A stretch of 21,254 bases of DNA from a virus. A program made the position numbers and the translations under genes. This document shows, in pieces, positions 2,938-17,860 of the stretch. The notes below the pieces were generated by a model. It had not been told where the DNA came from, searched no databases, and was given only the letters and a program-made list of their open reading frames with translations. The stretch is taken from IMG/VR virus record IMGVR_UViG_3300027833_000249, positions 1 to 21,254 of that record. One strand, written 5' to 3'. How positions within the stretch are numbered: the first letter of the stretch is position 1; every line of letters starts with the position of its first letter.

Positions 2938-3162
2938 ATGCCAACACTAACTGCTGTTAGCCCAGTACTTGTAGAAAACATAGGACTTGCAAAAGCAATT
3001 TCATGCCCCTTAGTATCGTTTGTAAAAAAAGATAACATAGTAGTAACGTTAGACGCATCAAATCTTACGTTAACTTATAATGCTGCTGAAATGCTATACA
3101 AAGGTACTAGAGGTGTATATAAGTACAGGACTACTGGTCCAGCTTATACTGCAACTGCCTAA
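2938..3162 (+). CDS. Small hypothetical protein (74 aa)
   Basis: I do not recognise this protein. The start is supported by a strong AAAGGAG at 2924-2930. The predicted product has alternating hydrophobic and polar stretches consistent with small beta strands. Its C-terminus is Tyr/Thr-rich (YKGTRGVYKYRTTGPAYTATA). There is no signal peptide and no obvious transmembrane segment. It is the last gene before the hairpin and late promoter, so it probably belongs to the fibre transcription unit. A small virion protein is possible. Its position just before the halogenase island also makes it a weak candidate substrate, but nothing in the sequence proves that. Confidence 0.6.
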   Translation: MPTLTAVSPVLVENIGLAKAISCPLVSFVKKDNIVVTLDASNLTLTYNAAEMLYKGTRGVYKYRTTGPAYTATA

Positions 3163-3246: not shown

Positions 3247-3254
3247 TATAAATA
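3247..3254 (+). promoter_or_regulatory. T4-type late promoter (TATAAATA)
   Basis: An exact TATAAATA octamer lies 27 bases upstream of the first halogenase ATG, in one of the few non-coding gaps of the window. In T4 this -10 sequence alone is recognised by the gp55 late sigma factor, and related NATAAATA motifs are used by T4-like cyanophages. Transcription should start a few bases downstream, leaving a short leader with an AGGAG before the ATG at 3282. It probably drives the whole halogenase/oxygenase run late in infection. Confidence 0.75.
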
Positions 3255-3281: not shown

Positions 3282-4913
3282 ATGGATATTAAAAGTATAG
3301 CAATTATCGGCGGCGGCTCAAGTGGTTGGATGTCAGCTGCTGCAATAAGTAAACTTTGCCCTAATGTAACTGTTACATTAGTTGAATCTAAAAAGATCGG
3401 AACTGTTGGAGTCGGAGAAAGTACACTAGGGCACATAAACAGGTATTTAAAATTACTAGGGTTAAAAGACGAAGACTGGATGCCTGCATGTAATGCAACA
3501 TATAAAAACTCTATTCGTTTTACAAACTTTAGAGAAAATGACGGAACTAGTTTTGAATATCCATTTGGTTCTGGCTATGATTTTACTGACTGTAATTCGG
3601 GATTAGCAACACACGGCCACCTAGCTGCATTATATCCTGACGAATTTACTCCTGATACATTTGCAAAAATGTATGCATCATCTAACACTGCACTTGCATT
3701 ACATAATAAACAAACTAGAAATAAAGACCGCGAACTAAGGCATTTTAACTTTGAGTATGATACCGCATATCACTTAGATGCTGGATTATTTGGTGAGTAC
3801 TTAAAAGATACTATATGTATTCCTAATGGGGTAGTACATAAAATAGGTGACGTACATTCGTACATTAAAGACAGTAAAGAAAATATTACTACAATATTAT
3901 GCGAAGACGGCACTAACGTAACTGCTGATTTGTTTATTGATTGTACTGGATTTAAATCAATGTTATTAGAAGGATGGATGGGTCAGGAGTTTATTCCGTT
4001 TGATAAACATCTTGCCAATGACAGTGCTTGGGCATGTAGACTTCCGTATACTAATAGAGAAGAGCAAATGCACAATGTTACTGATTGTCATGCACTTGGT
4101 AATGGATGGGTATGGAACATTCCGCTATGGAGCAGAATTGGTACAGGTTATTGTTTCTCTAGCAGGTTTATTAGTAAAGAAGGCGCACAGATGGAATTTA
4201 AAGAACATCTAGAAGCAACATACGGAAAAGATATTGCTGATGCTGCTGACATGTTCCATATAAAAATTAAACACGGATATCGACGCAAAGCATTTGTAAA
4301 AAATGTAGTCGGTATTGGCCTAAGTTACGGATTTGTTGAACCATTAGAGTCAACAGGATTGTTAACTACACACGAAAACATTCTTAAATTAGTTGATCTA
4401 ATAAATCGCCGCAAAGGATATATAACTAATTCAGAAAAAGAAGCATATAACTTTAGTGTAGAGTATGACTTAGTTGGCTTTAGAGATTTTGTATCTATGC
4501 ACTATGCATTATCAATGCGTACTGATACTCCTTATTGGCGCTGGGCAACTCAAACTAACGAATATCATCCTTTACAGTTTAATGATTTTATTCCTCAATA
4601 TAATGTTTATACTAATTTATTAGTGGCTCTTCAGAGTGCAAATACCTTTCAAGAAGCAAACCAAGGTGCAAACTATATAGCTGCTGGCATGGGAATTGCT
4701 ACATATTCGACTCCGGAATCAGTACGCGAAGAATACAGCAACGGTGATGCAAGATCTGCAATCCCTGTTAACGGCATAGAAGCATTAGAGCATTCACGCC
4801 AGGAATATCACAAACAACAGGAATCATTAACAGCATATATGGATACATTACCAAGTCATTATCAGTTCTTAAAAGATGAGATATATGGCGGTGTTGACAA
4901 CTATGAAGATTAA
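3282..4913 (+). CDS. Flavin-dependent halogenase 1 (tryptophan halogenase family)
   Basis: The 543-aa product has the family landmarks. The FAD-binding GGGSSGW is near residues 10-16, followed by VGVGEST (42-48). CNATYKNSIRF places the conserved catalytic lysine at K75. GWVWNIP (275-281) is the WxWxIP signature that separates halogenases from monooxygenases, and FVEPLESTGL (351-360) contains the catalytic-type glutamate E356. These enzymes use FADH2, O2 and halide to make HOX, which is channelled to the lysine and then to an aromatic or other electron-rich substrate. Marine phage homologues are known; VirX1 from a cyanophage was shown to be an iodide-preferring halogenase. The substrate here is unknown. 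The gene opens the island behind the late promoter and overlaps its paralogue by 11 bases. All catalytic residues appear intact. Confidence 0.9.
   Translation: MDIKSIAIIGGGSSGWMSAAAISKLCPNVTVTLVESKKIGTVGVGESTLGHINRYLKLLGLKDEDWMPACNATYKNSIRFTNFRENDGTSFEYPFGSGYDFTDCNSGLATHGHLAALYPDEFTPDTFAKMYASSNTALALHNKQTRNKDRELRHFNFEYDTAYHLDAGLFGEYLKDTICIPNGVVHKIGDVHSYIKDSKENITTILCEDGTNVTADLFIDCTGFKSMLLEGWMGQEFIPFDKHLANDSAWACRLPYTNREEQMHNVTDCHALGNGWVWNIPLWSRIGTGYCFSSRFISKEGAQMEFKEHLEATYGKDIADAADMFHIKIKHGYRRKAFVKNVVGIGLSYGFVEPLESTGLLTTHENILKLVDLINRRKGYITNSEKEAYNFSVEYDLVGFRDFVSMHYALSMRTDTPYWRWATQTNEYHPLQFNDFIPQYNVYTNLLVALQSANTFQEANQGANYIAAGMGIATYSTPESVREEYSNGDARSAIPVNGIEALEHSRQEYHKQQESLTAYMDTLPSHYQFLKDEIYGGVDNYED
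4311..4357 (+). repeat. 47-base exact repeat in halogenase 1
   Basis: The bases are identical to 5932-5978. They encode GIGLSYGFVEPLESTG, including the catalytic-type glutamate. Identity at all synonymous sites, inside otherwise diverged paralogues, suggests gene conversion. Confidence 0.9.
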
Positions 4914-6498
4914 AACTACTACTATAGTTGGCGGTGGGTCCAGTGGGTGGATGGCTGCTGCCGCACTAAGTAAACTGTGTCCAGAGGTTGATGTTGTTCT
5001 AGTTGAATCACCTGATATTGCAACAGTAGGCGTTGGAGAAAGTACACTAGGACAAATTAATTTGTTTTTAGATTACTTAGGTCTAGAAGACGAAGATTGG
5101 ATGGCTGCTTGTAATGCAACATATAAGAACTCTATTCGATTTACAAATTTTAGAGAAAATGACGGAACTAGTTTTCAATATCCCTTTAGTGAAGGCTTAG
5201 ACTTAACAGACAAAATAGGCGGCGTCGAAACACATTCAGAGTTAGCAACACTATACCCTAATGAATATACTCCTGATACATTTGCTAGATTTTATGCTAC
5301 ATTGCATACACACATAGCTGATGCAAATAAACAAACTGCCAATGACGGTAACTTTTATAGACATTATAGTTTTAAATGGGATACTGCATATCACACTGAT
5401 GCAAAATTATTTGGCGAGTACATGCGAGATAAAGTTGCACTTCCTAATAATGTTAAACACATTAAAGCTACAGTAGTTGATCAGAAAAAAGATGATAAAG
5501 GTAATTTAGAAAGTTTAACATTAGATAACGGAACTGTATTAACTTCAGATCTTTGGTTAGACTGTACTGGATTTAGTTCTATGTTGTTAGAGCAATGTAT
5601 GGGATCGGAGTTTAAATCTTTTGATAGCCACTTACATAATGACAGTGCCTGGGCTTGCCGTGTGCCTTACGAGAACAAAGATGAAGAAATGCATAACTAC
5701 ACTGACTGTCATGCATTAGGTAATGGTTGGGTTTGGCACATACCGTTATGGAATCGTATTGGTACAGGCTATGTGTATTCGTCAAAGTTTACAACTGCTG
5801 AAGATGCTAAACAAGAGTTTATTGAACATTTAAAAACAACAGGATCAATAGAACGTGCAGAAAATGCAGAAATGCACCACGTTAACATGCGACATGGCAG
5901 AAGAGAACGTGCTTGGGTTAAGAACGTAGTAGGTATTGGCCTAAGTTACGGATTTGTTGAACCATTAGAGTCAACAGGCCTCTTGACAACACACGAAAAC
6001 ATTGTTAAACTAGTAGAGATGTTAAACAGAAGAAACGGCTTTGTTGGGAGAACAGAAATAGAAGCGTTTAACTTTAGTACAGAAATAGAAGTATTAAAGT
6101 TTAGAGATTTTATTTCTATGCATTATTCTCTCTCAATGCGCACTGATACACCTTACTGGAAATATTGCACAGAAGAACACGAATACGAAAAAAACTACTT
6201 CGAAGAATGGTTACCTAAAAGCCAACAGTATACAAACCTACTAGGAACAGTAACTAGTGCTAGGAAGTATCCAGATACTACATTTGTTGCTGCATTATAT
6301 ATTGCTGCTGGTATGGGATTTAGGCCATTGACAACAAAAGAAATAATACTTAGTAAACCTAACAGACTAGAACAGTTAGAGTTTACAAAAAAGAACTTTG
6401 AAGCATACGAAAAATATATAATAGAAGAAGTAAATAAAATGCCTACACACTATGAATTTTTAAAACAACGTATATATAATGGGATTGATGATGTTTAA
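4903..6498 (+). CDS. Flavin-dependent halogenase 2 (paralogue of halogenase 1)
   Basis: The start chosen is the ATG at 4903 (MKIKTTTIVGGGSSGW), which aligns residue for residue with halogenase 1; the in-frame ATG at 4876 would add nine unmatched residues. The 531-aa product is collinear with its neighbour to residue 360. It has GGGSSGW at 10-16, K75 in CNATYK, GWVWHIP at 275-281 and E356 in EPLESTG. The last third is more diverged (for example EHEYEKNYFEEWLPKSQQYTNL), so substrate binding may differ. It arose by tandem duplication and keeps a 47-base identical stretch over the active site. Translation is probably coupled to halogenase 1, because the start lies inside that gene's end and only a weak purine-rich site precedes it. 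It needs reduced flavin from a partner reductase not found in this window. Confidence 0.9.
   Translation: MKIKTTTIVGGGSSGWMAAAALSKLCPEVDVVLVESPDIATVGVGESTLGQINLFLDYLGLEDEDWMAACNATYKNSIRFTNFRENDGTSFQYPFSEGLDLTDKIGGVETHSELATLYPNEYTPDTFARFYATLHTHIADANKQTANDGNFYRHYSFKWDTAYHTDAKLFGEYMRDKVALPNNVKHIKATVVDQKKDDKGNLESLTLDNGTVLTSDLWLDCTGFSSMLLEQCMGSEFKSFDSHLHNDSAWACRVPYENKDEEMHNYTDCHALGNGWVWHIPLWNRIGTGYVYSSKFTTAEDAKQEFIEHLKTTGSIERAENAEMHHVNMRHGRRERAWVKNVVGIGLSYGFVEPLESTGLLTTHENIVKLVEMLNRRNGFVGRTEIEAFNFSTEIEVLKFRDFISMHYSLSMRTDTPYWKYCTEEHEYEKNYFEEWLPKSQQYTNLLGTVTSARKYPDTTFVAALYIAAGMGFRPLTTKEIILSKPNRLEQLEFTKKNFEAYEKYIIEEVNKMPTHYEFLKQRIYNGIDDV
5932..5978 (+). repeat. 47-base exact repeat in halogenase 2
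   Basis: This is the partner of 4311-4357, at the same codon positions of the tandem paralogue. Confidence 0.9.
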
Positions 6499-7312
6499 AA
6501 AAGAAAAGTCTTGGGTTCGTTTTTACTCAATGGAGCCAGGCGTTGCAGAAGTCTTTCCAATTATACCTGCGCATAAACTAAAGCGTAGTTGGATGCAACG
6601 GAATGATCCTCCTGATCCAGATAACGGTAGTATGCACACTAAAAACTGCCCAGGGATTACTAAATTAGTGTCAATGGGGTATGTAGTATGTGCGCCTGCA
6701 GACTTTACAATAAGAACTGATGCAAATAATAATACAACATTTGAATGGTCTGAAGCAAGAAGATTTAATACCGAAGATGGTGATAATAAACGATATATTG
6801 GATACCATAACCAACATCAAACAGAAATTACATTAGATGATCCTAAAAAATCATTAAAGGTAGCTGTAAAGGTAGATACACCTTGGAGAGTAAAAGCGTC
6901 TGATGATATTTTATTATTACAGGTCCCTATAGCATATAATAACGAAGCTCGCTTTACGGCAGCACATGGGATATTAGATCCTCGTTACGGGCACGTAGTT
7001 AATGCACAGTTGTATTGGCATGTGTTAGAAGGCGAAACACTAATTAAAGCAGGCACACCATTAATGCACTATATTCCAGTGCAGCGTAATTTTAATATTA
7101 GCAATATAGATTTAATAGTCGACGATGCAACGCAAGATGACAAAGAATTAGAAAAAGCATTTAACTATTCAAACGATTCTATATTTTTAAAGCACGACAG
7201 CCTTAAGTCAAGATTAAAAAGAACCATGGCAGTAATGACTAAGTACAAACACAATAGGAGAAATACATTATGGACTTCATTATCGAACTCGATATCGCAA
7301 TTACTAAAGTAG
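6488..7312 (+). CDS. Uncharacterised protein of the halogenase neighbourhood (DUF6065-like)
   Basis: The start is one of two adjacent ATGs (6488 or 6491) that overlap the end of halogenase 2. The 274-aa product has a run of beta-strand-like segments: KNCPG near 52-56, GYVVCAPADF (64-73), KVDTPWRV (128-135) and AGTPLMHYIPVQR (188-200). It ends in a basic region (KYKHNRRNTLW). From memory this pattern resembles a family of unknown function (DUF6065) found near tryptophan halogenases in marine T4-like phages; the assignment is tentative. The fold may be a cupin-like beta-sandwich, but I see no convincing HxD...H metal triad. Overlaps on both sides tie it to the halogenases. It could present or bind their substrate. 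Confidence 0.7.
   Translation: MMFKKEKSWVRFYSMEPGVAEVFPIIPAHKLKRSWMQRNDPPDPDNGSMHTKNCPGITKLVSMGYVVCAPADFTIRTDANNNTTFEWSEARRFNTEDGDNKRYIGYHNQHQTEITLDDPKKSLKVAVKVDTPWRVKASDDILLLQVPIAYNNEARFTAAHGILDPRYGHVVNAQLYWHVLEGETLIKAGTPLMHYIPVQRNFNISNIDLIVDDATQDDKELEKAFNYSNDSIFLKHDSLKSRLKRTMAVMTKYKHNRRNTLWTSLSNSISQLLK
7256..7260 (+). promoter_or_regulatory. Ribosome binding site AGGAG for the 81-aa gene
   Basis: AGGAG lies nine bases before the ATG at 7270, inside the end of the upstream gene. It supports the 43-base overlap between the two reading frames as real rather than a chance ORF. Confidence 0.65.
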
Positions 7313-7515
7313 AAGCATCTTTAGCAGAAGCAAAAGAAAAATTAGCAGAGATGGAAAAAGACTTTGCTGATGTTAAATTAAATCCTTATGGGATTACATC
7401 TATTGACTTCCAAGGAAGACAAGAGTTGTTAGAAGATGCAACAAAGATGGAAGGCTGCATCATGGGATTACAGCTGGCGAAAGATACTTATGAGTCAAGT
7501 GTCGCAACAGCTTAA
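7270..7515 (+). CDS. Small coiled-coil protein (81 aa)
   Basis: This is an acidic, helical protein. Residues 5-38 show heptad-like spacing of Ile, Val, Leu and Ala between charged residues (KVEASLAEAKEKLAEMEKDF), and residues 50-78 a second helix with Leu and Met. The product is not recognised. It begins 43 bases before the end of the preceding frame with its own AGGAG, and its end overlaps the first oxygenase start. It could be an assembly or scaffold subunit for the enzymes, but that rests only on its size, helices and position. Confidence 0.65.
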   Translation: MDFIIELDIAITKVEASLAEAKEKLAEMEKDFADVKLNPYGITSIDFQGRQELLEDATKMEGCIMGLQLAKDTYESSVATA

Positions 7516-8098
7516 TGCAATTGATGTATCTCCGTTTCCAAAACTTGTATGGAAATTTAAGTATAATTTTCCATACGAGACATTAACTAGTTTAATATCT
7601 GAACTTACTTCACAAACACCTAATAATTCAGTCTTAGAAACTGGCGCAGCTTTTTCAACTGCGTCAGCATCTCAGGATCCTCCGCATACGTGGCCAGAGC
7701 TACATGACTTTAGACAGTGGATAGGCGACCCACTTGATTTACTTTGGAAACATAATAATTTTGATAAACACCGTGGATCAACTGTAACTAATTCTTGGAT
7801 TAACACTCATAAAAAGGGCGGCGCAACTCTAGAACATAATCATAATTTTTCATTATTTGTAGTTACTGCATATCTTAAACTTCCTAAAGAAGGTGGGTTT
7901 ATTGAATTTAGAGATCCTTTAGAATATCATAAAGCTAATACTCCTATTATACCTGAAGAAGAATTGTGGAAGGCTGTGCCGTGCGAAACTAACGATGTTC
8001 TTATTTTTCCAGCCTGGCTAAAGCATAGGGTACAAGAAAGTAAATCAGACGAAGAAAGAATTGTAATGACTATGAATATTGGACCCGGTAATGGGTAA
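7490..8098 (+). CDS. 2OG-Fe(II) oxygenase-like protein 1 (TIGR02466-like)
   Basis: The start is set at 7490 (MSQVSQQLNAIDVSPFPKLVW), overlapping the small coiled-coil gene by 26 bases; an in-frame ATG at 7436 would add residues unlike this family. The 202-aa product shows the double-stranded beta-helix pattern of putative 2OG-Fe(II) oxygenases. NSWINTHKKGG precedes H116-N-H118, followed by GGFIEFRDP (135-143), DVLIFPAWLKHRV (169-181, distal H179) and R190 as the likely 2-oxoglutarate anchor. An HxH stands where most relatives of the superfamily have HxD. Such proteins couple decarboxylation of 2-oxoglutarate to hydroxylation. The substrate is unknown. It overlaps the next gene by eight bases. 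Confidence 0.8.
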   Translation: MSQVSQQLNAIDVSPFPKLVWKFKYNFPYETLTSLISELTSQTPNNSVLETGAAFSTASASQDPPHTWPELHDFRQWIGDPLDLLWKHNNFDKHRGSTVTNSWINTHKKGGATLEHNHNFSLFVVTAYLKLPKEGGFIEFRDPLEYHKANTPIIPEEELWKAVPCETNDVLIFPAWLKHRVQESKSDEERIVMTMNIGPGNG

Positions 8099-8888
8099 CA
8101 CAATAGATTTTAATTTTTGTACTCCTGATGCTAATTCTTTTGACAAAGAAATGTTAGTTAAAACAATTGAAGAATGGAATGTTGAGTACGTTGCATTAAC
8201 TGAAAAAACAGGATATTGGATTGCTGATAACCCGTTTAACGGAAACTGCTTTGAAACTTATAAGAATCTTATTGCAGCATTTCCAGTAGTAAAGAATAAT
8301 AACGCAGGTACATCTACTGATCCAAATCCCTTTGACACAATTCATTTACCGGAATGGTTGACAAGATGTGTAATTGAACTTATAATAAGATATTACATTA
8401 ACAATGTAGAAAGCTCTATAGTTAATGACACAGTACATGAATGGGGAAACTTATATTGGAAGGATAAAAGTAAACCTATAGAAGCATTTAGAATACCGCA
8501 CATTGATTACCCGAACGGCATTGTTGGCAACTTGTGGCTTAGTGATCATCCTTATGGAAGCAGCGGAACTAACTTATACGAATACACAGGAAACGTACAT
8601 GGGTTGCATTATGACTTTCAAGTTGATGATACACACCCGCTGTATAACAGATATAAAAGCCTATCGTTAACTAATAGACTACCGCAATGGAAAAACTTTA
8701 GCGATGAAGAAGCAGAAGAATTTGGATTTAAAAAACTAGCAATGGTACCAGGAGAATATTCAAAGATTACAATGTATAAGTCAAACACCCCGCATTGTCC
8801 TTATATAGATCCAACCATTGATTTTAGATGGAGTCATACATTTGCTTTTGAACACGACACACTTAGTATGAAGGACGTTTTTAGATGA
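8091..8888 (+). CDS. 2OG-Fe(II) oxygenase-like protein 2 (DUF6445-like)
   Basis: The start at 8091 (MGNTIDFNF) overlaps the previous stop by eight bases (ATGGGTAA). The 265-aa product carries a convincing facial triad: IPHID gives H137 and D139, and NTPHCPYIDPTIDFRW gives H235 plus R246 for 2-oxoglutarate. GNLWLSDHPYGSSGTNLYEY (146-165) is the strand region between them, where DUF6445-type proteins typically read YLN...GGTxFY. An insertion of roughly 60 residues (about 166-225) makes it longer than its DUF6445-like neighbours at 10758 and 11381. The N-terminal 120 residues are not recognised. Hydroxylation of an unknown substrate is inferred. Confidence 0.75.
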   Translation: MGNTIDFNFCTPDANSFDKEMLVKTIEEWNVEYVALTEKTGYWIADNPFNGNCFETYKNLIAAFPVVKNNNAGTSTDPNPFDTIHLPEWLTRCVIELIIRYYINNVESSIVNDTVHEWGNLYWKDKSKPIEAFRIPHIDYPNGIVGNLWLSDHPYGSSGTNLYEYTGNVHGLHYDFQVDDTHPLYNRYKSLSLTNRLPQWKNFSDEEAEEFGFKKLAMVPGEYSKITMYKSNTPHCPYIDPTIDFRWSHTFAFEHDTLSMKDVFR

Positions 8889-9478
8889 ATACAGATTTTT
8901 ACTTTCCGACACCTGTATGGTGGGAAGATACTAATATAGATAACACCCCTATTGTACAGTTATGTAATAAACTACGTGCAGAAGATCCAGATGGTCGACT
9001 AATTAGTAACAATGGCGGATGGCAATCGAAAGACTTTAAATTACAAGAACACGACGAATTTATAGATTTTGTAGATGCTGTTGCAGATATGTCAATGAGT
9101 TGTCTTAATGATTATGGGTATGTTAACGGTGCATATAAATTAGAAATGCTTAACGGTTGGTTTAATGTAAATCAAAAAGGTAACTCTAATCAAATTCATA
9201 CACACGGCGGATCATTTATTTCCGGAACATACTATGTACAAGCTGAACAAGATCAGAGCGAATTAATTTTTTATAAAAACTTTACAGAAGACTTTGTAAT
9301 TTCTTCAGCAGGCCAAATAGACAACTTCACTGCTATTAGCGGAGCAACTTGTCGATATCCTCCAAAGACTGGAAGATTAATTTTGTTTCCGTCATATGTT
9401 CCACACGGAGTAATGCCTAGTACTAGTGATAACGAACGTATTTCGTTAGCGTTTAATATGAGGATGGTTGATGTATAA
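8885..9478 (+). CDS. 2OG-Fe(II) oxygenase-like protein 3 (TIGR02466-like)
   Basis: This 197-aa protein closely follows the TIGR02466 pattern. FPTPVWW sits at the N-terminus, NGWFNVNQKGNSNQIHTHGGSFISGTYYV at 90-118 has H105 and H107, and GRLILFPSYVPHGVMP (163-178) has the distal H174. ERISLAFN (184-191) provides R185. The family is annotated as putative 2OG-Fe(II) oxygenase and is frequent in marine phages and bacteria, without a defined substrate. The gene starts within ATGA at the end of the previous gene, so translation is probably coupled. No disruption is seen. Confidence 0.82.
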   Translation: MNTDFYFPTPVWWEDTNIDNTPIVQLCNKLRAEDPDGRLISNNGGWQSKDFKLQEHDEFIDFVDAVADMSMSCLNDYGYVNGAYKLEMLNGWFNVNQKGNSNQIHTHGGSFISGTYYVQAEQDQSELIFYKNFTEDFVISSAGQIDNFTAISGATCRYPPKTGRLILFPSYVPHGVMPSTSDNERISLAFNMRMVDV

Positions 9479-10190
9479 TAATATTGCAGAAAAAATATTC
9501 ACAAAAGTTGACTTAGAAAACGATGATAAAGCGTGTTTCTTTAAAGACTTTATTGATAACCCTTCGGATCTATTAACATGGAACGATGTTGCAGACTGCA
9601 TGAATAATCCTTCTTTTTATGATTTTGAATTAGTTGATCATGACAATCAAAAAGTAAATATACCTGCACACGCTAAAACGTGGAATTATCATAAACCTAT
9701 TCAGGATAAAAAATTCCTATTTGATAATGTTAATCACGGCCATACTTTAATTATTACAAATTACGGATATCGTAATGATAACACAACTGCACTGTTAGAT
9801 ACATTTGAACAAATGTTTGATGTGCATGCAGCAATACATGTATATGCTGGCCTAAAAAAATCTAAGTCATTTACAATACATGACGATTATCCTGCAAACT
9901 TTATAATACAAGTTGAAGGAGAAACTCGTTGGCGAGTATATGAAAATAGAATATCATATCTTTTTAAAACAGGTAGAATGAACGGCAGGGTAAATACTGA
10001 TACACTACGTACTGCAATTGACGTAACATTAACACCGGGCGATGCACTTTATATTCCGTCAAGGGCATACCATTGTGCAGAGCCTTCAGACAAAAGATTA
10101 TCTATTAGTATTCCGTGTTGGCAACGACTTGCTACAGACCCACCTGGTGCTAGAACTGATAGAACAACTTATAGGATAAAAGATGACTGA
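9471..10190 (+). CDS. JmjC/cupin-type 2OG oxygenase (putative protein hydroxylase)
   Basis: The ATG at 9471 (MYNNIAEKIF) overlaps the previous stop as ATGTATAA; a TTG three bases earlier is a poorer choice. The 239-aa product has a cupin core unlike its neighbours. FTIHDDYPANFIIQVEG (134-150) gives H137 and D139, then ETRWRVYE (151-158) and LTPGDALYIPSRAYHCAEP (187-205) with the distal H201. This layout, HxDxxxxFxxQxEGxxxWxxY then PGDxLYxPxxxxH, is that of Cupin_4/JmjC ribosomal oxygenases such as YcfD and the MINA/NO66 group, which hydroxylate Arg or His of ribosomal proteins. The inference is protein hydroxylation, of host or phage proteins. The C-terminal winged-helix part of cellular members is missing, so it is a minimal version. 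Confidence 0.78.
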   Translation: MYNNIAEKIFTKVDLENDDKACFFKDFIDNPSDLLTWNDVADCMNNPSFYDFELVDHDNQKVNIPAHAKTWNYHKPIQDKKFLFDNVNHGHTLIITNYGYRNDNTTALLDTFEQMFDVHAAIHVYAGLKKSKSFTIHDDYPANFIIQVEGETRWRVYENRISYLFKTGRMNGRVNTDTLRTAIDVTLTPGDALYIPSRAYHCAEPSDKRLSISIPCWQRLATDPPGARTDRTTYRIKDD

Positions 10191-10758
10191 TATTATAGAA
10201 ATACCAAACTTAGTTGATAGAGAATACCAACGTAAAATGTATAATACTGTAACAGGCGTTGACTTTCCGTGGCATTATTTAGAAGATACTACATACGAAT
10301 TAGGAAATAAAAAAAGTATTAGTACTCCGGGATTTTCTCATTTATTATTTGCTAGTGATGGCAATCAAAGCGAATATCTAGATATATTTACACCAATGTA
10401 TTTAAAGGGTATAGAAGCAGCAGGTCTAAAGCTAGTATCAACATTGCGTCTTAGATTAGGATTTCTTTTAAAAACCCGTTATACATTACCAAATATGCCA
10501 TATGTGTATAATACTCCGCATGTTGATTTTGACGTTGATCATTATACTGCATTGTACTATTTAAATACCTGCGATGGCGACACTATCATTTTTAATCAAA
10601 CTGAGGAAAGCGACAAGTATTCCACTAAGCATCGTAGTACTCCAGAGGCAGGCAAATTTACTATATTTGATGGGAACCACTATCATGCAAGTTCGTGTCC
10701 TAAAATGGAACCGTCAAGAATAGTGTTAACTATGAACTTTACTGCGGAGAAAATTTAA
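10183..10758 (+). CDS. 2OG-Fe(II) oxygenase 5
   Basis: The 191-aa protein starts in an eight-base overlap (ATGACTGA). The triad is clear: TPHVDFDVDHYTALYYLN gives H113 and D115, NHYHASS gives H168, and SRIVLTMNF gives R179. The segment DGDTIIF (131-137) lies between them. This is a compact oxygenase type that I associate with T4-like marine phage genomes, related to the prolyl-4-hydroxylase fold. It is a paralogue of the gene at 12085, sharing the N-terminal DIIEI and the PHxD, YYxN, DGDTxIFN and YHASS blocks. Substrate not known. Confidence 0.83.
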   Translation: MTDIIEIPNLVDREYQRKMYNTVTGVDFPWHYLEDTTYELGNKKSISTPGFSHLLFASDGNQSEYLDIFTPMYLKGIEAAGLKLVSTLRLRLGFLLKTRYTLPNMPYVYNTPHVDFDVDHYTALYYLNTCDGDTIIFNQTEESDKYSTKHRSTPEAGKFTIFDGNHYHASSCPKMEPSRIVLTMNFTAEKI

Positions 10759-11381
10759 TGGTACGAGCCGATCGCCCCCACATTCCTACTACTGTAATTG
10801 ATAACTTTTTTGAAACTCCTAGTTTATGGAGAGACTTTGCATTAGCTCAAGAATACTATAAAGGCGAAAGAGGTACCTGGCCCGGTATAAGAACATCAAT
10901 GTTAAGTGAATTAAGTTCTGAACTATATGAAATATTAGAAATTAGATTACTAGAACACTTACCTATGTTTACTGGCCTAAGTAAAGTAGAATCTACTTTT
11001 CAGCTAATAGACGAAACCTGGGGCAAGGGATGGGTACATGACGACAATCCAGAACATGACGTTGCAGGTATTATATATTTAAATAAAGATGCTCCGTTAA
11101 ACACTGGAACTACTATGTACGAAGGTGCAGCTGACATTAACGGAGAGCATTATTCTAAATTGTTTCAAGAAGATGTATTAAGTACAGATCCAGAAGTAAG
11201 AAAAGGGTATGCAAAATATAGAGATGAACAACGTGCATTTTTTAAACCAGCAATAAATGTAGATTGTGTATGGAATAGATGTGTAATGTTTGATCCAAGG
11301 ACTTGGCACAGTGCTGATAACTTCTTTGGTACTACTAAAGACGACACTAGATTAACATTAGTATTTTTTGGGAACACATAA
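10758..11381 (+). CDS. 2OG-Fe(II) oxygenase-like protein 6 (DUF6445-like, tandem pair)
   Basis: The 207-aa product begins at TAATG, sharing one base with the previous stop. Conserved blocks are VIDNFFETPSLWRDFAL (13-29), KGWVHDDNPEHDVAGIIYLN with H94 and D96, GTTMYEG (117-123), and NRCVMFDPRTWHSADNFFG with H184. TRLTLVFF supplies R198. This matches DUF6445-type proteins, which look like 2OG-Fe(II) oxygenases by triad and spacing but have no assigned substrate that I know of. The next gene is a close paralogue and the pair clearly arose by tandem duplication. Confidence 0.8.
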   Translation: MVRADRPHIPTTVIDNFFETPSLWRDFALAQEYYKGERGTWPGIRTSMLSELSSELYEILEIRLLEHLPMFTGLSKVESTFQLIDETWGKGWVHDDNPEHDVAGIIYLNKDAPLNTGTTMYEGAADINGEHYSKLFQEDVLSTDPEVRKGYAKYRDEQRAFFKPAINVDCVWNRCVMFDPRTWHSADNFFGTTKDDTRLTLVFFGNT

Positions 11382-12085
11382 TGACAATTGACATAAACAC
11401 TATCAATAATAATGCACGAAATAGTGCAGAGCTTATTGCTAAGAACGACTTAAAAAATAGAAGAAAAACAAAGTTTTTACCTACTAAGATAATTGATAAC
11501 TTCTTTGAAAGTCCTAGTTTGTGGAGAAACTTAGCATTGTCGCAGCATTACGAAGTTGCTGGAGAAAACCCTAGTACATATCCAGGAAAGCGAAGTCCTT
11601 TTTTAAATCAAATTGACGTTGAGTCGTTTGAACTACTAGCTAGAGGACTACTAAAGCATTTACCTATGTTTCGAGGATTTAATGATTTGTGGGCAAACTT
11701 TCATTTAATTGATAGCAGCTATGGTAGTGGATGGGTACATGACGATGATCCTACGCTATCTGTATCTGGGTTAATATATTTAAATCCTAATCCAGCCACT
11801 AATAGCGGCACAACAATATATAACGATCGACACGATGCTCAGGCTAACAAATATAATGATAAGTTTAAACAAGACATATTGTATGCTACGCCCGAAGACA
11901 GAGCAAATATAAGCAAGTACAGAGAAGAGCATCGATCTTACTTTACGCCTAATACTGTCATTGAAAATGTATATAATAGATGTGTAATATTTGATCCAAA
12001 GGTTTGGCATTCTCCTAATGAGTTTTTTGGCTCAGCAGACGATAGTGCTAGATTAACATTAGTATTTTTTGCAAGGGGCGGATAA
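11381..12085 (+). CDS. 2OG-Fe(II) oxygenase-like protein 7 (DUF6445-like, tandem pair)
   Basis: This 234-aa paralogue of the preceding gene has a 27-residue N-terminal extension rich in Asn, Asp and Lys. Matching blocks are IIDNFFESPSLWRNLAL (37-53), GSGWVHDDDPTLSVSGLIYLN with H120 and D122, GTTIY (143-147), and NRCVIFDPKVWHSPNEFFG with H210. ARLTLVFF gives R224. Between the triad parts is a Tyr-, Lys- and Asp-rich insert (about 148-195) present in both copies, which may form the substrate pocket or lid. It starts within TAATG of the previous gene. Confidence 0.8.
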   Translation: MTIDINTINNNARNSAELIAKNDLKNRRKTKFLPTKIIDNFFESPSLWRNLALSQHYEVAGENPSTYPGKRSPFLNQIDVESFELLARGLLKHLPMFRGFNDLWANFHLIDSSYGSGWVHDDDPTLSVSGLIYLNPNPATNSGTTIYNDRHDAQANKYNDKFKQDILYATPEDRANISKYREEHRSYFTPNTVIENVYNRCVIFDPKVWHSPNEFFGSADDSARLTLVFFARGG

Positions 12086-12687
12086 TGGACGATATTATTG
12101 AAATTAGAAATGTAGTATCGCTAGGATATCAAGACTTTATACATGAGAAAGTTACTAGCTTACAGTTTCCTTGGTATTTTAATACTAACCTAGTTACCCC
12201 CGAAGCAACATTAAAAGATGAAGCAAATATTCAAGGGTTTAATCACTTTCTTTTTGAAGAACAAAAACAGGTGTCGCCAACATTTGATTCTATATACCCG
12301 TTGTATCTAAGTATAGTAGATCAATTAAAGGGTACAGATATTAAATTTAACCTACTTGAAAGGATGCGTTTTAATTTAACTTATGCAAATCCATTGTCAA
12401 CGCTTCCTTGGCATATGCCGCACATTGATAGTATGTATCCGCACTATAATGCAATTTATTATGTAAATGATAGCGACGGAGATACTGTTATTTTTAATGA
12501 AACAAATGAAGATTATAGTGAAGACTTTGATGTAATGAAAGAAAACAAATTTACTGTTAAACAGAGAATAACTCCTGAAAAGGGAAAGGTAGTTGTATTT
12601 CCTGGACATTATTATCATGCAAGTTCATTTGCTAAAAACAGTAATTATAGATGCGTACTAAACATTAATCTAGGAAAAGTTTTTTAA
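12085..12687 (+). CDS. 2OG-Fe(II) oxygenase 8 (paralogue of 10183 gene)
   Basis: The 200-aa product has MPHIDSMYPHYNAIYYVN with H113 and D115, DGDTVIFN (131-138), PGHYYHASSF with H178, and YRCVLNIN with R189. The spacing of the triad is nearly that of the protein at 10183, whose H113 and D115 fall at the same residue numbers, so the two are paralogues now separated by the DUF6445-like pair. The chain is diverged outside the core, as expected for different substrates. It starts in TAATG. Confidence 0.83.
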   Translation: MDDIIEIRNVVSLGYQDFIHEKVTSLQFPWYFNTNLVTPEATLKDEANIQGFNHFLFEEQKQVSPTFDSIYPLYLSIVDQLKGTDIKFNLLERMRFNLTYANPLSTLPWHMPHIDSMYPHYNAIYYVNDSDGDTVIFNETNEDYSEDFDVMKENKFTVKQRITPEKGKVVVFPGHYYHASSFAKNSNYRCVLNINLGKVF

Positions 12688-13211
12688 TGGACTATAAAGT
12701 ATATAAATCACAAACAGTAATTGATCATCAATCGTTAATGATTAATGACTTAAATATAGCACAGGCTTATGTAAAAGAACACTTACCAGTAACTGACTTA
12801 ACTTGGAATTATAGGTATTATAATATATTTGCAGTTACATCACCTTCGCCTACTTTCTTTAATTTGTTTAAAGAAGTGTGTAATATTATTAGAGAACATG
12901 TAGGCGACGATAGACCTTTGTGGATGCAAAGTTGGTTAAATCGTCATTTGCACGACGAAGTATTAGATTGGCACGGACACGACTATCCGTGGCATGGATA
13001 TGTTTGTATAGATCCTAAAGATAGCACAACGCTATTTGAGGGATATGATATTAACAATGAAGTAGGAAATATATACATTGGCCCTGGACATAGGCGACAT
13101 AAAGTAGAATCACTTTCTGCTTTTGAAGGACATCGATTAACTTTAGGATTTGATGTACATGATGAAACAGGAACACCGTATGATCAATTTGGAATGGTAC
13201 CAGTATTATGA
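12687..13211 (+). CDS. 2OG-Fe(II) oxygenase-like protein 9 (HxH type, 174 aa)
   Basis: This short protein has WMQSWLNRHLHDEVLDWHGHDYPWHGYVCIDP at 79-110, with H96-G-H98 followed by D99. GNIYIGPGHRRHKVESL (127-143) holds a distal histidine, H138 (H135 is an alternative), and GHRLTLGFDV supplies R150. The strand order and spacing fit a 2OG-Fe(II) oxygenase. Whether the metal ligands are H96/H98 or involve D99 cannot be read from one sequence. It is joined to both neighbours by overlapping stop and start codons. Substrate unknown. Confidence 0.75.
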   Translation: MDYKVYKSQTVIDHQSLMINDLNIAQAYVKEHLPVTDLTWNYRYYNIFAVTSPSPTFFNLFKEVCNIIREHVGDDRPLWMQSWLNRHLHDEVLDWHGHDYPWHGYVCIDPKDSTTLFEGYDINNEVGNIYIGPGHRRHKVESLSAFEGHRLTLGFDVHDETGTPYDQFGMVPVL

Positions 13212-13936
13212 TTAATGAATTAAACTCAAAAGACTTTGCAATAGTATTGCGTAACGTAGTTAGCAAAGATATATGTAAGTTTGCTAGTGCAGAATTTAGA
13301 ATGGTATCAACCTGTGTAGGTCTTTTGAACGGCAATGACGATTCAAATAAAGAAATTGGACTTACTGAAAGTTTTTCAATATATTCTCCAATATTTACAG
13401 AAACACTATCATTGCTAATACAGCCGCATATTGAAGAAGCTGTTGGTAAGAAACTGTTGCCTACATACTCGTATGGAAGAATATATAGAACCGGTGCGAG
13501 GCTAGATCCGCATTTAGATCGTGCCAGTTCTGAATATACAATATCATTATGTTTAGAAAATGATCCAGTACACGATGATTGGCAATTAGTAGTAAAACAT
13601 AAAGATAAAACTCTTGAATATGTATCTTTAGGGGTAGGAGATGTATTAATTTATCCAGGAAGAGATCTTAACCATTGGCGTGAAGGTGCATTTAAAGGTA
13701 CAGAACAAATACAAGCATTTATACAATATGTCGATGCTGCCGGCCAGAGCAGAGACCTAAAGTGGGATGGTCGTCCAGCAATGGGAATGCCTTGGGATAG
13801 TGCTAATCAATTAGTACATGAGAACTTAGCTACACAAATGGACACTATGAAAAATGCTAACGGTGAAGATGGCCTTGACGATCAACTACCGTCAGTACTA
13901 GACGTAATGGCGGGTATTAATAATGCCAGAACCTAA
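13208..13936 (+). CDS. 2OG-Fe(II) oxygenase 10 (prolyl hydroxylase-like)
   Basis: The 242-aa protein has YSYGRIYRTGARLDPHLDRASSEYTISLCLE (87-117) with H102 and D104, followed by GVGDVLIYPGRDLNHWRE with H156. The segment after the distal histidine reads EQIQAFIQYVD. Where most relatives have an Arg or Lys to hold 2-oxoglutarate, a Gln (about Q167) seems to stand. The C-terminal 65 residues are an added polar tail not needed for the fold. The R-T-G-x-x-L-x-P-H-x-D arrangement resembles prolyl-4-hydroxylase-like phage proteins. It starts in ATGA and overlaps the next gene by 14 bases. Confidence 0.78.
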   Translation: MINELNSKDFAIVLRNVVSKDICKFASAEFRMVSTCVGLLNGNDDSNKEIGLTESFSIYSPIFTETLSLLIQPHIEEAVGKKLLPTYSYGRIYRTGARLDPHLDRASSEYTISLCLENDPVHDDWQLVVKHKDKTLEYVSLGVGDVLIYPGRDLNHWREGAFKGTEQIQAFIQYVDAAGQSRDLKWDGRPAMGMPWDSANQLVHENLATQMDTMKNANGEDGLDDQLPSVLDVMAGINNART

Positions 13937-14534
13937 AACACATTCAATGTTTCCAGTTGAAGTATTAGAGTATCAGCAAACTGGAAAAACATACGATGGC
14001 ATTATTGAGTTACTAAGAAACGAAGCGTTTAAAGAGCATGAAGCATATTCTTCATTAGCTAATATACATAAAATTCCGCATTATAACGAACCATTTGAAT
14101 TTATAAACGAATGTTTAGAAGACGTTAGAACTAGGTATAGTTATGATTGTGAGAAATTTGAAATAACATCTTCTTGGTGTAATATGTCAAAACCAAACAG
14201 TGGAATGAATCATAAATTTCATAGACATTCTATGAGTTATCTTAGCGGAATCTTTTATATGACCGAAGGTGCGCCTGTTGGGTTTGAAGATCCGTTAATG
14301 CAAAGAACTATGAATCAATTAGAAGTTCTTAGAACCGACGGGTATGTCCCGTTTGAATTTATAGCACCAATGCCGGGCAAACTATTATTATTTCCAAGCT
14401 GGTTGTATCATTGGACTAAGCCGCATATTGATGATTTTGAAAGATGGAATATTTCCTTTAATGTATTGCCAACAGGTAAGATTAACTATAATATGGGAAC
14501 AGATTCCACAGCAAATATAGAATTAAAAAACTAA
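13923..14534 (+). CDS. 2OG-Fe(II) oxygenase-like protein 11 (TIGR02466-like)
   Basis: The 203-aa protein has SSWCNMSKPNSGMNHKFHRHSMSYLSGIFYM at 83-113, with H100-R-H102. VGFEDP (119-124), GKLLLFPSWLYHWTKP (152-167) with the distal H163, and ERWNISFN (173-180) with R174 follow. This is the TIGR02466 layout of putative 2OG-Fe(II) oxygenases, again with HxH. The start overlaps the previous frame by 14 bases with a GGCGGG upstream. The C-terminal 25 residues are polar and probably disordered. Confidence 0.82.
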   Translation: MPEPKTHSMFPVEVLEYQQTGKTYDGIIELLRNEAFKEHEAYSSLANIHKIPHYNEPFEFINECLEDVRTRYSYDCEKFEITSSWCNMSKPNSGMNHKFHRHSMSYLSGIFYMTEGAPVGFEDPLMQRTMNQLEVLRTDGYVPFEFIAPMPGKLLLFPSWLYHWTKPHIDDFERWNISFNVLPTGKINYNMGTDSTANIELKN

Positions 14535-15079
14535 TGAAAAAGATAAAATTAGATATGCCTGTTGTAATATCACAATTAAAGGATCATACTAAAATTAAAG
14601 CTGATGTACTTGCACTAATTAATTCCGAAGTAAGTGGAGAACAAATAGTAGAGGGAGATACTTTAGATATTAGTAATTGTGATTATAAAATGTCAGATAA
14701 GGACCGATCTTGGACTGAATTAATACAGCCGTATATACTAGAGAATATGACTCATGTATGCAAAGACCTAGGGTATGATGCATTTAAGATATATAACATT
14801 TGGTTTCAGCAATATAATGAAGGAAGCACACATGGCTGGCACATACATACGCAGTGCCAATGGTCTAATGTTTACTACTTAGATATGCCAGAAGGTTCTC
14901 CACAAACACAATTAATAAACCCGTGGAATCAAACAGAAGTTATTACTATGGATGTTAAGGAAGGAGATGTATTAACATTTCCTAGCTTTGTTATTCACCG
15001 TGCTCCTGTGAACGAAAACACAACAACTAAGACTATTGTTAGCTTTAACAGTGATGTTGAATTAAACTTTGGAAAATAA
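14534..15079 (+). CDS. 2OG-Fe(II) oxygenase-like protein 12 (HxH type)
   Basis: The 181-aa protein shows YNIWFQQYNEGSTHGWHIHTQCQWSNVYYLDMPEG at 87-121, with H103-I-H105. EGDVLTFPSFVIHRAPVN (143-160) contains the distal H155. The expected basic residue for 2-oxoglutarate is probably K166 (TTKTIVSFN) rather than arginine. The pattern is close to TIGR02466-like neighbours but shorter at the N-terminus. It begins in TAATG and is followed after three bases by halogenase 3, the only non-overlapping junction of the run. Confidence 0.78.
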   Translation: MKKIKLDMPVVISQLKDHTKIKADVLALINSEVSGEQIVEGDTLDISNCDYKMSDKDRSWTELIQPYILENMTHVCKDLGYDAFKIYNIWFQQYNEGSTHGWHIHTQCQWSNVYYLDMPEGSPQTQLINPWNQTEVITMDVKEGDVLTFPSFVIHRAPVNENTTTKTIVSFNSDVELNFGK

Positions 15080-15082
15080 TAT

Positions 15083-16615
15083 ATGAAATTTGATAATATT
15101 GTAATTGTAGGTGGAGGTAGTGCAGGTTGGATGACCGCAGCTACTCTTATAAAGGTATTTCCAAATAAAAATATTACTGTAGTAGAATCTGCTGATGTTA
15201 GTGCTGTTGGCGTAGGCGAAAGTACAACACAACTTATGCGTCGCTGGCAACATTTTTTAGAAATACCAGATATTGACTTTTTAACAAAATGTAATGCAAC
15301 TAATAAGTTAAGTATTAGATTTGAAAACTTTCACAAAAAAGACGGTGTAGGATTTCATTATCCATTTGGAAGACTAGATGAAAGATACTTTAATGTTGCA
15401 GATTGGTTTGCACACCAGTCTTTAACAGGAGTTCCATTTGAGGATCTAGTATCTGATATGTCACCTATAAGCGAATGTTTAGCCACTAACAAAGTTCCAA
15501 CAACACCATTTGATGATAATTTTGTTGGCACTACTTGGAGTTTAGAAAACGATGCTGCCTGGCACTTTGACACACATAAATTTTATGCATACTTGCGAGA
15601 CGATTACTGTTTACCTAAAGGAGTAAAGCGTGTAGTTGCACATGTAACTGATACAACAACTGATGCTGATGGATTTATTACTAGTGTACATACTAAGCAA
15701 GGTAACATAACTGGCGATTTGTTTTTTGATTGCACAGGATTCAAGCGGGTATTAATCGAAGGTGTAATGAACGAACCTTGGGTAGAGTTTAATAATAAAA
15801 CTTATACTGATAGCGCCTGGGCAGCAGCAAGGCCATATAAAGATAAAGAAAAAGAACTACGATTGTATACTAATAGTGTAGCACTTGATTATGGATGGGT
15901 ATGGGAGATACCTACATGGGAGCGTATTGGCACAGGGTATAATTATGCAAGTAAATACATTAGTGACGAACAAGCACTGGCAGAATTTAAAGAATATCTA
16001 GGACCAGTTGCTGACGAAATGGAGTTCCGTCATATTAAAATGCGTAACGGTATGAGCAAACGTTTATGGGTTAAAAACTGTGTAAGCATTGGCCTTAGTG
16101 GAGCATTTATTGAACCTTTAGAATCTAACGGATTAATGAGCGTACACGAATTTTTATTAAACTTTGTTAATATTGCAGAAGGTAAAGACACATTAAATAA
16201 TTTTGACGCACATACATTTAACCATGTTAATAAAGAACAGTTTTTAAACTTTGCTGATTTTGTTACAATACATTATGCAATGACAGCTAGAGACGACACA
16301 CAGTACTGGCGTGATATACAAAATCAAGAGTTTAACGATAGTTCATTATTACAAGAAATATACAATTTAAGAGGAGCTAACTATCGTTCAATTCCTGATA
16401 GATTTCAAAATCTAGGAGCAAATACATATATGTTAGCTGGACATAAAATAAATCCGTACTCGTCCTTTAAACATAGTAATATGAATTTTTGGAGAGATAC
16501 GTTTCCTAATCAAATATATAATTTAGATACTATTAGTAAACCTAATAACATTAGTAAGAAAAAAATAACAGATACATTCCCTACAAGCGTAGAGTATTAT
16601 GGACAGTTTCATTAA
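15083..16615 (+). CDS. Flavin-dependent halogenase 3 (diverged)
   Basis: The 510-aa protein has the FAD motif GGGSAGW (10-17), VGVGEST (42-48), CNATNKLSIRF with catalytic-type K75, GWVWEIP (271-277) and FIEPLESNG (342-350) with E347. It is clearly a member of the family but lies well apart from halogenases 1 and 2. ATYK is replaced by ATNK, ESTG by ESNG, and there is a different insert around residues 97-155 (RYFNVADWFAHQSL...). It therefore probably has another substrate and was not part of the recent tandem duplication. The start follows a short gap after the previous gene. It overlaps the last oxygenase of the island at TAATG. Confidence 0.88.
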   Translation: MKFDNIVIVGGGSAGWMTAATLIKVFPNKNITVVESADVSAVGVGESTTQLMRRWQHFLEIPDIDFLTKCNATNKLSIRFENFHKKDGVGFHYPFGRLDERYFNVADWFAHQSLTGVPFEDLVSDMSPISECLATNKVPTTPFDDNFVGTTWSLENDAAWHFDTHKFYAYLRDDYCLPKGVKRVVAHVTDTTTDADGFITSVHTKQGNITGDLFFDCTGFKRVLIEGVMNEPWVEFNNKTYTDSAWAAARPYKDKEKELRLYTNSVALDYGWVWEIPTWERIGTGYNYASKYISDEQALAEFKEYLGPVADEMEFRHIKMRNGMSKRLWVKNCVSIGLSGAFIEPLESNGLMSVHEFLLNFVNIAEGKDTLNNFDAHTFNHVNKEQFLNFADFVTIHYAMTARDDTQYWRDIQNQEFNDSSLLQEIYNLRGANYRSIPDRFQNLGANTYMLAGHKINPYSSFKHSNMNFWRDTFPNQIYNLDTISKPNNISKKKITDTFPTSVEYYGQFH

Positions 16616-17169
16616 TGAATATAACTCCGTTATTTCCTAGTTTTTTAGCAACAGAAGATACATCGGAAATTATCGATGTTAACAGTATACAACAATATTG
16701 CAATGTTACAGGTGACGGAAATACTGATGCATATAGTAAAGCACTATTACCATTAACTAACTGGATAACTGAACAAGCTAATAACCTTAGAGATCTTCAG
16801 GGTATTAATAGCGAAATTCCGTTTACATTAGATGACTGTTGGATTAATTGTATAGGGCCAAATGATAAACATAATTCTCATCCAAACTTTCCGCATAGTC
16901 ATGCAGCATCGTGGTTAAGTTTTGTATACTACGTTAACTATGCAACTGATGCAGGAAGTTTAGTACTTATGTCGCCGCATCAAAATACAGAGTTATCAAT
17001 GCCACGTAAAATAGTTTCTGATAATAATATATTTAATGCAGTTCGCTGGAGTGTAATTCCAACAAATGGACTAGTAGTAGCATTTCCTGGATGGTTAACA
17101 CATTATGTTGAACCTAATCATAGTGATGAAACTAGGATTTCGATTGCATATAATTTTAGTTTACAATAA
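16615..17169 (+). CDS. 2OG-Fe(II) oxygenase-like protein 13 (TIGR02466-like)
   Basis: The 184-aa protein starts with ITPLFPSF, the usual N-terminal strand of TIGR02466 proteins. It continues with DDCWINCIGPNDKHNSHPNFPHSHAASWLSFVYYV (73-107), in which H94-S-H96 is the likely first ligand pair. LVVAFPGWLTHYVEP (153-167) gives the distal H163, and TRISIAYNF (173-181) gives R174. It closes the island; the next gene has its own ribosome binding site and possibly its own promoter. Confidence 0.82.
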   Translation: MNITPLFPSFLATEDTSEIIDVNSIQQYCNVTGDGNTDAYSKALLPLTNWITEQANNLRDLQGINSEIPFTLDDCWINCIGPNDKHNSHPNFPHSHAASWLSFVYYVNYATDAGSLVLMSPHQNTELSMPRKIVSDNNIFNAVRWSVIPTNGLVVAFPGWLTHYVEPNHSDETRISIAYNFSLQ

Positions 17170-17172
17170 ATA
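17165..17172 (+). promoter_or_regulatory. Possible late promoter (AATAAATA)
   Basis: AATAAATA differs from the T4 late octamer only in the first base and fits the NATAAATA form used by T4-like cyanophages. It overlaps the stop codon of the last oxygenase and lies 22 bases before the next ATG. Such octamers arise easily by chance in AT-rich DNA, so the call is weak. Confidence 0.4.
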
Positions 17173-17194: not shown

Positions 17195-17410
17195 ATGTCA
17201 AAAATGATATATGAAATAAGAGCTTACTCACCAAGTAAGAATGAAGTACAACGAGAGTTTGATCAAGATGCTCTACAAGGCCGCCCTACACAGACTGCTG
17301 TCCTTGCACAACGCAAAGCAGATGCATTTGCTTATAGACTTAATTTACAAAAGAAGTTAAGAGTAAATGATTGGGAAGGTCAAATTGTTTTGATCTCAAC
17401 GATGATCTAA
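17195..17410 (+). CDS. Small hypothetical protein (71 aa)
   Basis: I do not recognise this 71-aa basic protein. It is preceded by a strong AAGGAG at 17182-17187, seven bases before the ATG. The sequence looks like a beta strand (MIYEIRAYSP), a helix rich in Gln, Ala and Arg (PTQTAVLAQRKADAFAYRLNLQKK) and a final strand (WEGQIVLIST), a compact alpha/beta fold. No catalytic motif is visible. Its last 15 bases overlap the end of the convergent Nudix gene, and it is the last plus-strand gene. Confidence 0.65.
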   Translation: MSKMIYEIRAYSPSKNEVQREFDQDALQGRPTQTAVLAQRKADAFAYRLNLQKKLRVNDWEGQIVLISTMI

Positions 17411-17839: not shown

Positions 17840-17860
17840 ACTAATAATTATCTTAGTATG
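17837..17860 (-). promoter_or_regulatory. Inverted repeat over the gp15 stop and Nudix start
   Basis: CATACTAA and TTAGTATG are exact inverted copies separated by eight bases. On the minus-strand RNA the 5' arm contains the gp15 stop codon and the 3' arm ends in the Nudix AUG. The stem is eight pairs but only two are G-C, so it is weak. It might limit Nudix initiation unless ribosomes terminating on gp15 open it. Confidence 0.4.

Follow-up and report, generated by a model that had tools for sequence, protein, structure and literature searches.

The native role of VirX1-type halogenases and of many 2-oxoglutarate (2OG) oxygenases of T4-like phages has been a question since the first cyanophage genomes. 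Published reports include cyanophage S-CREM1 with 10 2OG oxygenases, treated as unexplained metabolic genes (PMC9964418), and S-SCSM1 with 24 (PMC9602691), while syn9, Syn10, P-TIM40, S-RIM44 and others possess two to three halogenases each. Antibiotic protection (PMC2984593, PMC9964418) and nitrogen signalling or DNA repair (PMC3037559) have been suggested as the purpose of such genes. Here we present the analysis of a cassette of halogenase and oxygenase genes in the IMG/VR virus record IMGVR_UViG_3300027833_000249, of which the complete 21,254 bases, part of a larger phage, were studied (the window). An earlier note on this DNA had assumed that marine T4-like phages carry such halogenases and oxygenases singly, with VirX1 as an example; the genomes just named contradict this, and VirX1 itself is part of a homologous cassette in Syn10.

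The cassette consists of 18 open reading frames (ORFs), all on the + strand, which span positions 3282-17169, overlap or nearly touch and are translationally coupled. They encode three predicted VirX1-type flavin-dependent halogenases, thirteen proteins with an oxygenase signature, one protein with a predicted dUTPase-like fold and one small coiled-coil protein. The run lies directly downstream of tail-fibre tip genes and of a small gene C (phrog_1787), a position overlooked by earlier annotations. The best explanation, to which we give about an even chance, is a late operon whose products add hydroxyl groups and halogens to the phage's own fibre tips in the course of assembly. Tip tailoring is favoured because the linkage of cassette and tips persists across differing genome locations, together with late promoters; the published ideas (antibiotic, DNA repair, 2OG/nitrogen signalling) fall short because they leave the fibre linkage unaccounted for. 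No proposal of fibre tailoring was found in the literature on phage halogenases and oxygenases, subscription papers being outside the scope.

The features of the window are as follows; for the predicted oxygenases the residues of the metal and co-substrate signature are given.

1..669, + strand: U1, glycine-rich tail-fibre tip (phrog_863), 5' end cut by the contig end, frame open to base 1
692..1546, + strand: U2, glycine-rich tail-fibre tip, modelled with AlphaFold2
1571..2419, + strand: U3, glycine-rich tail-fibre tip (phrog_863), 73% identical to U2
2421..2912, + strand: C, small conserved protein (phrog_1787, 2.9e-22), between tips and halogenase
2938..3162, + strand: X74, small ORF of 74 amino acids between C and H1, found in a subset of loci, no family match
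3247..3254, + strand: T4-type late promoter TATAAATA (core at 3248), 28 nucleotides (nt) before H1
3282..4913, + strand: H1, predicted flavin-dependent halogenase of the VirX1 clade (PF04820, 336 bits; 55% to the VirX1-type gene of syn9)
4903..6498, + strand: H2, predicted flavin-dependent halogenase, tandem duplicate of H1 (56%; PF04820, 360 bits; VirX1 6qgm, E-value 1.2e-175)
6491..7312, + strand: D, protein with predicted dUTPase-like fold, DUF6065-like (phrog_7084, 6.8e-56)
7270..7515, + strand: K, small coiled-coil-like protein
7490..8098, + strand: a, 2OG-Fe(II) oxygenase (PF13759, 54.6 bits; H134 H136 H197 R208, numbered from 7436)
8079..8888, + strand: b, 2OG-type oxygenase, DUF6445-related (phrog_1644; H141 D143 H239 R250)
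8885..9478, + strand: c, TIGR02466 oxygenase (H105 H107 H174 R185)
9471..10190, + strand: d, JmjC/cupin-type oxygenase (JmjC_2, 64.7 bits; H138 D140 H202 R210, numbered from 9468)
10183..10758, + strand: e, 2OG oxygenase (phrog_274; H113 D115 H168 R179)
10758..11381, + strand: f, DUF6445 oxygenase (56.2 bits; H94 D96 H184 R198)
11381..12085, + strand: g, DUF6445 oxygenase (46.9 bits; H120 D122 H210 R224)
12085..12687, + strand: h, 2OG oxygenase (phrog_274; H113 D115 H178 R189)
12687..13211, + strand: i, 2OG oxygenase (phrog_2696; PF13759 matches in 11 of 19 relatives; H96 H98 H138 R150)
13208..13936, + strand: j, likely 2OG oxygenase (phrog_2954, labelled 'ferrochelatase'; H102 D104 H156 R158)
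13923..14534, + strand: k, PF13759 oxygenase (59.7 bits; H100 H102 H163 R174)
14534..15079, + strand: l, PF13759 oxygenase (46.6 bits; H103 H105 H155 K166)
15083..16615, + strand: H3, predicted flavin-dependent halogenase of a second clade (38% to H1; 336.7 bits)
16615..17169, + strand: m, PF13759 oxygenase (70 bits; H94 H96 H163 R174)
17165..17172, + strand: second and last late-promoter core of the window (core at 17166), directly after the cassette and before the next gene

A DNA-level similarity search against isolate phages gave no match, and proteins and gene order were therefore compared. Scans of IMG/VR with independent anchors (two halogenases, C, a tip and oxygenase b) delivered about 250 loci, many from overlapping contig stretches, which were reduced to 86 by counting distinct D proteins. 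These 86 loci keep with striking regularity to the arrangement U U U - C - H(H) - D - K - a b c d e f g h i j, and D stands directly 3' of a halogenase in 85 adjacencies. In the C-anchored scan, which covers the 80 nearest relatives out of at least 303 and is thus biased to close relatives on contigs that are not independent events, a tip gene lies at most 1.5 kb upstream in all 70 loci with enough sequence, a halogenase at most 1.5 kb downstream in 61 of 64, and three or more oxygenases are present in 44 of 46. With oxygenase b as anchor, tips and C stand upstream in 62 of 65 loci; in the other three, b has the opposite orientation and lies at the cassette's far end. The number of tip copies gives no signal for the number of oxygenases (9.6 in the 7 loci with two tips, 10.0 in the 42 loci with three).

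In the isolate phage collection (50,697 records), 20 records have C and 17 have the tips; all of these are cyanophages and belong to the 66 records that bear a halogenase. The halogenase records without C that were inspected (P-SSM2, S-H35, S-MbCM6) have a single halogenase gene elsewhere in the genome. Homologous cassettes are found in the isolated cyanophages syn9/Syn10, S-RIM44, P-TIM40, S-CREM1, Sf-FP1, S-WAM1, S-SZBM1 and P-RSM6. Their location varies, beside the neck genes in S-RIM44 and beside a methylase and a helicase in syn9, yet the tips stay attached. The earlier note had proposed a comparison of gene content, with random scatter of the genes as the outcome that would speak against a single unit; their co-occurrence in fixed order is strongly opposite to scatter.

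Upstream of the cassette stands a T4-type late promoter; NATAAATA has been described as the late promoter of cyanomyoviruses (PMC2984593). The core ATAAATA occurs 2 times in the window where 13 are expected, and 293 times over the 86 loci where 689 are expected, so that it is strongly avoided outside promoter positions. In 65 of 82 loci NATAAATA is found no more than 80 nt upstream of C or the first halogenase; before the internal genes it is absent for most oxygenases and occurs in a handful of cases for D, K and e. From this layout, late expression in the structural phase is predicted.

The halogenases H1-H3 score 336-360 bits against PF04820 (cut-off 21 bits), and the best PDB match of H2 is VirX1. 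GGGSxG, GVGEST, WVWxIP and EPLES are present in each of the three, which thus have the GxGxxG-type flavin adenine dinucleotide (FAD) motif, the catalytic Lys, WxWxIP and the conserved Glu of the PF04820/VirX1 clade. K75, E344 and E347 (H3 coordinates) are fully conserved across 121 homologues, and the earlier reading of three halogenases with intact K75, WxWxIP and EPLES holds. By analogy they are predicted halogenases, activity with reduced FAD (FADH2) and halide being known only from their relative VirX1 (PMC8407142).

The metal and co-substrate signature is complete in all thirteen oxygenases, as HxH...H...R/K in a, c, i, k, l and m and as HxD...H...R in b, d, e, f, g, h and j. Conservation of the metal residues reaches 99-100% in 12 of the 13 families, over 11-121 homologues each; since these homologues are widely divergent, the signatures are not chance patterning. 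The metal site of g is intact in the window, but His/Asp residues are lost in about a third of its relatives (e.g. L200, L212 and L201), which suggests a pseudoenzyme or a structural role. Family evidence is uneven among the thirteen proteins in which the earlier note had recognized HxD/HxH...H patterns. Pfam or NCBIfam models are matched above cut-off by a, c, k, l and m (PF13759), d (JmjC_2) and f and g (DUF6445); the TIGR02466 cut-off of 62.5 bits is passed by c (97.9), with k slightly under it (61.8). Profile-profile comparison (hhalign) ties e, h and i to c at 95-96%, b to f at 94% and e to h at 100%, where the controls D, C, H and K reach about 4% at most. For j no Pfam match and no profile link to the other oxygenases were found, and its assignment as a likely oxygenase is based on the motif and its invariant residues. 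The PHROG names 'DNA endonuclease V', 'minor coat protein' and 'ferrochelatase' (phrog_274, phrog_1644 and phrog_2954; window genes within 8079-8888, 10183-12687 and 13208-13936) serve as gene names in several cyanophage records and are likely propagated misannotations.

The tips are about 280 amino acids long with 24% glycine. Positions with His, Tyr, Phe, Glu, Asn and Ser are invariant or nearly so, and the conserved residues also include Pro and Trp. The single model of U2 (predicted local distance difference test, pLDDT, 81.9) has a tumour necrosis factor-like and glycine-rich lattice fold and matches the fibre of cyanophage Pam3 (7ypx) in Foldseek at an E-value of 3.1e-8, 24% identity and a template modelling (TM) score of about 0.5. 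The model thus resembles the receptor-binding fibre gp24 of Pam3 (PMC9608196), and receptor binding by the tips is predicted. C has no PDB relative at E-values up to 1, its family phrog_1787 is without assigned function, and no sequence relation to Tfa/gp25-type chaperones was found; its position makes it possibly a fibre-assembly or folding factor. Virion mass spectrometry of S-SZBM1 (PMC9146016, Table 1) lists the products of genes 51-54, four of the five that directly precede the tips, as virion proteins, and the cassette enzymes 42-46, C and the tips are absent from the list. The absence of the enzymes is as expected if they act before assembly ends.

Taken together, a working sequence of events can be proposed. 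The intact active sites, the operon layout, the placement of late promoters, the near-obligate linkage to the tips and the tip fold are computational results; that the tips are the substrate, which reactions take place, what C, D and K do and what benefit follows are inferred. Late in infection the tandem glycine-rich tips, C, the halogenases and the 2OG/Fe(II) oxygenases would be made together, with C possibly acting as a folding factor beside the tips. The oxygenases would hydroxylate several exposed side chains of the tips, in which His, Asn, Tyr, Glu, Pro and Trp are conserved, and the halogenases would act on aromatic tip residues before or during trimer assembly. The unusually open active site of VirX1 and its acceptance of large substrates (PMC8407142) are counted in favour of such a reaction. 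D and K may keep tip and enzymes together, and modification would make the tips more stable or improve their affinity for the receptor. More tentatively, and at somewhat less than an even chance, the cassette can be seen as an enzymatic finishing line that chemically diversifies receptor-binding tips, so that host recognition would be the product of adhesin sequence and post-translational chemistry.

Several points weigh against tip tailoring. The modification of the tips is itself a hypothesis. The fibre of Pam3 shares the fold, yet Pam3 is not among the halogenase-match phages listed, so the fold alone need not require enzymes. Sf-CH11, P-SSM2 and S-H35, the last two with a single halogenase, have related enzymes without U-type tips, and a shared late promoter or an insertion hotspot could be the cause of the linkage. 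VirX1 has been characterised on small aromatics, not on protein (PMC8407142), and the dUTPase-like D fits no obvious step of protein tailoring. The tips were undetected in the S-SZBM1 virion (PMC9146016), where their presence is therefore presumed; SSZBM1_51, a neighbour that was detected, has slightly fewer suitable tryptic peptides. The tips may have escaped notice because their copy number is low or because a standard search overlooks peptides with shifted masses, and the missing tips prove neither.

Of the other explanations, modification of something in the host, be it a surface protein, a glycan or a ribosomal protein, with the late transcription unit merely shared with fibre genes, survives best, and we regard it as unlikely. 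Host reprogramming is preferred by the published authors (PMC9964418, PMC9602691), 2OG oxygenases are known to hydroxylate ribosomal proteins according to a reference cited in PMC9602691, and the number of enzymes could reflect many targets. The near-absolute linkage to one adhesin type and C at different genome positions argues against it, as does the late-promoter placement. Further, a search of 15 long IMG/VR records of relatives (42-278 kb, some of which may be incomplete) found psbA in one only, which implies no single photosynthetic host function; as it is missing from the other 14, many cassette carriers may infect non-cyanobacterial hosts. A cellular origin of the cassette was rejected. 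The D scan of 84,980 species genomes gave only two contigs, both taken as phage DNA: a 188-kb contig of the Nonlabens xiamenensis assembly (L263, NZ_RMVE01000006.1) with phage gene order and a P-TIM40-like cassette, which is probably a cyanophage genome and not bacterial DNA, and a contig from a single Prochlorococcus cell that carries H H D a.

Quite improbable is the making or decoration of a small molecule or polysaccharide, such as an antibiotic, toxin or capsule modifier. Halogenase homologues do occur in pyrrolnitrin-type pathways (an idea put forward in PMC2984593), and for a separate cyanophage cluster of carbamoyltransferases, a halogenase and 2OG enzymes a function in secondary metabolism or the capsule has been predicted (PMC7824862). 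The cassette genes, however, include no scaffold synthase, carrier protein, glycosyltransferase, transporter or universally conserved precursor peptide and in this differ from a secondary-metabolite cluster; X74 is confined to a subset of loci. Of the substrates named in the earlier note, the neighbouring adhesins are now best supported, by the linkage, while host ribosome, glycan and small molecule are without positive support; its label of an oxidative-tailoring island is fair, its interpretation as a whole partly borne out.

Modification of phage DNA or of the nucleotide pool, with oxygenases and halogenases acting on bases, is very improbable and draws mainly on D. The AlphaFold model of D (pLDDT 88.8) is dUTPase/dCTP-deaminase-like, with Foldseek matches to dUTPases at an E-value of 4.4e-4 and probability 1.0 but a low query-normalised TM score of 0.25-0.37, which points, with limited strength, to a dUTPase-like fold for what had been noted as an uncharacterised beta-rich protein. 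One segment, which includes the invariant Asp, can be aligned with E. coli Dut, though weakly (E-value 0.019, probability 2.5%), and DUF6065 matches to the family are weak and occur in 6 of 46 relatives. Outside such cassettes, distant relatives from haloarchaeal tailed viruses and from S-RIM4 have genes for thymidylate synthase or ribonucleotide reductase nearby (L261:5845-6717; L262:5803-6597). D may be a co-opted nucleotide enzyme; as a guess, it could serve as scaffold for the trimeric fibre. The cassette oxygenases are of TIGR02466, DUF6445 and JmjC types with no match to TET/JBP or AlkB families in scans with curated models, which together with the late promoter and the fibre linkage speaks against DNA as the target. 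That multi-copy oxygenases tune 2OG (NtcA nitrogen signalling) or serve DNA repair, as put forward in PMC3037559 and cited in PMC9146016, has hardly any likelihood, since it explains neither the thirteen diverged families, each with its own conserved active site, nor the halogenases nor the adhesin linkage, and psbA is missing from most long records.

All 18 genes of the 13.9-kb run reported in the earlier note are judged real, including its coiled-coil protein, the small gene K, which adjoins D in 72 cases over the 86 loci. The intergenic gap in relatives is typically -4 nt (4-base overlaps). The likelier start codons are at 4903 (H2), 6491 (D), 7490 (a) and 9471 (d) instead of the mechanical first starts; those of a (7436) and H2 (4876) were dropped because they overlap the preceding gene far beyond the norm in relatives. 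PDB profile searches with b, i, j, D and U gave nothing useful. In the window, an Rfam scan gave no match, a tRNA search found none, and sigma-70 promoter and terminator scans stayed at chance level. A convergent block on the - strand (17396-21120) encodes a NUDIX hydrolase, a long (502 amino acids) gp15-like tail sheath stabiliser and an Ala-rich charged protein.

The cassette is real, conserved and known in its parts, and as a unit it is apparently undescribed; the gene families are already known, and the proposed function would be new. A fixed operon tied to one tip type turns the question of native role into a direct experiment. If the tips are indeed tailored, adhesin sequence alone would not suffice to predict which hosts abundant marine phages infect. 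Phage-host recognition would then have a further, new layer, viral halogenases would have a first native function, and halogenases and hydroxylases that act on a defined protein in nature could be drawn on.

Among known systems, S-SCSM1 is a T4-like cyanophage whose 24 diverged 2OG-Fe(II) oxygenase genes make it alike in number, but they were described as metabolic genes at many loci with no mention of a halogenase or fibre link (PMC9602691). The S-SSM7/S-SSM6a cluster (PMC7824862) combines a halogenase with 2OG enzymes and in S-SSM7 lies downstream of a tail-fibre gene; it differs by its sugar and carbamoyl-transfer enzymes, its predicted role in a metabolite or capsule system and the lack of detectable C, D, K and U-type tips. 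Pam3 pairs gp24, with its tip-like fold, with a protein of about 160 amino acids, the chaperone gp25 (7YPX, PMC9608196), whereas C has no sequence relation to any PDB chain including the Pam3 chaperone, and an enzyme cassette is not reported there. VirX1 of Syn10 (PDB 6QGM) is an orthologous enzyme from a homologous locus, with tips, C, two halogenases and D in syn9 order, but was studied alone as a biocatalyst, its operon context not being discussed in the open literature found. The cassettes of syn9, S-CREM1, S-RIM44 and P-TIM40 have the same families in largely the same order as the window in smaller runs of about 4-9 recognised oxygenases and 1-2 halogenases. From most relatives, many of which carry extra halogenases and k convergently at the far end, the window is set apart by k-l-H3-m on the same strand.

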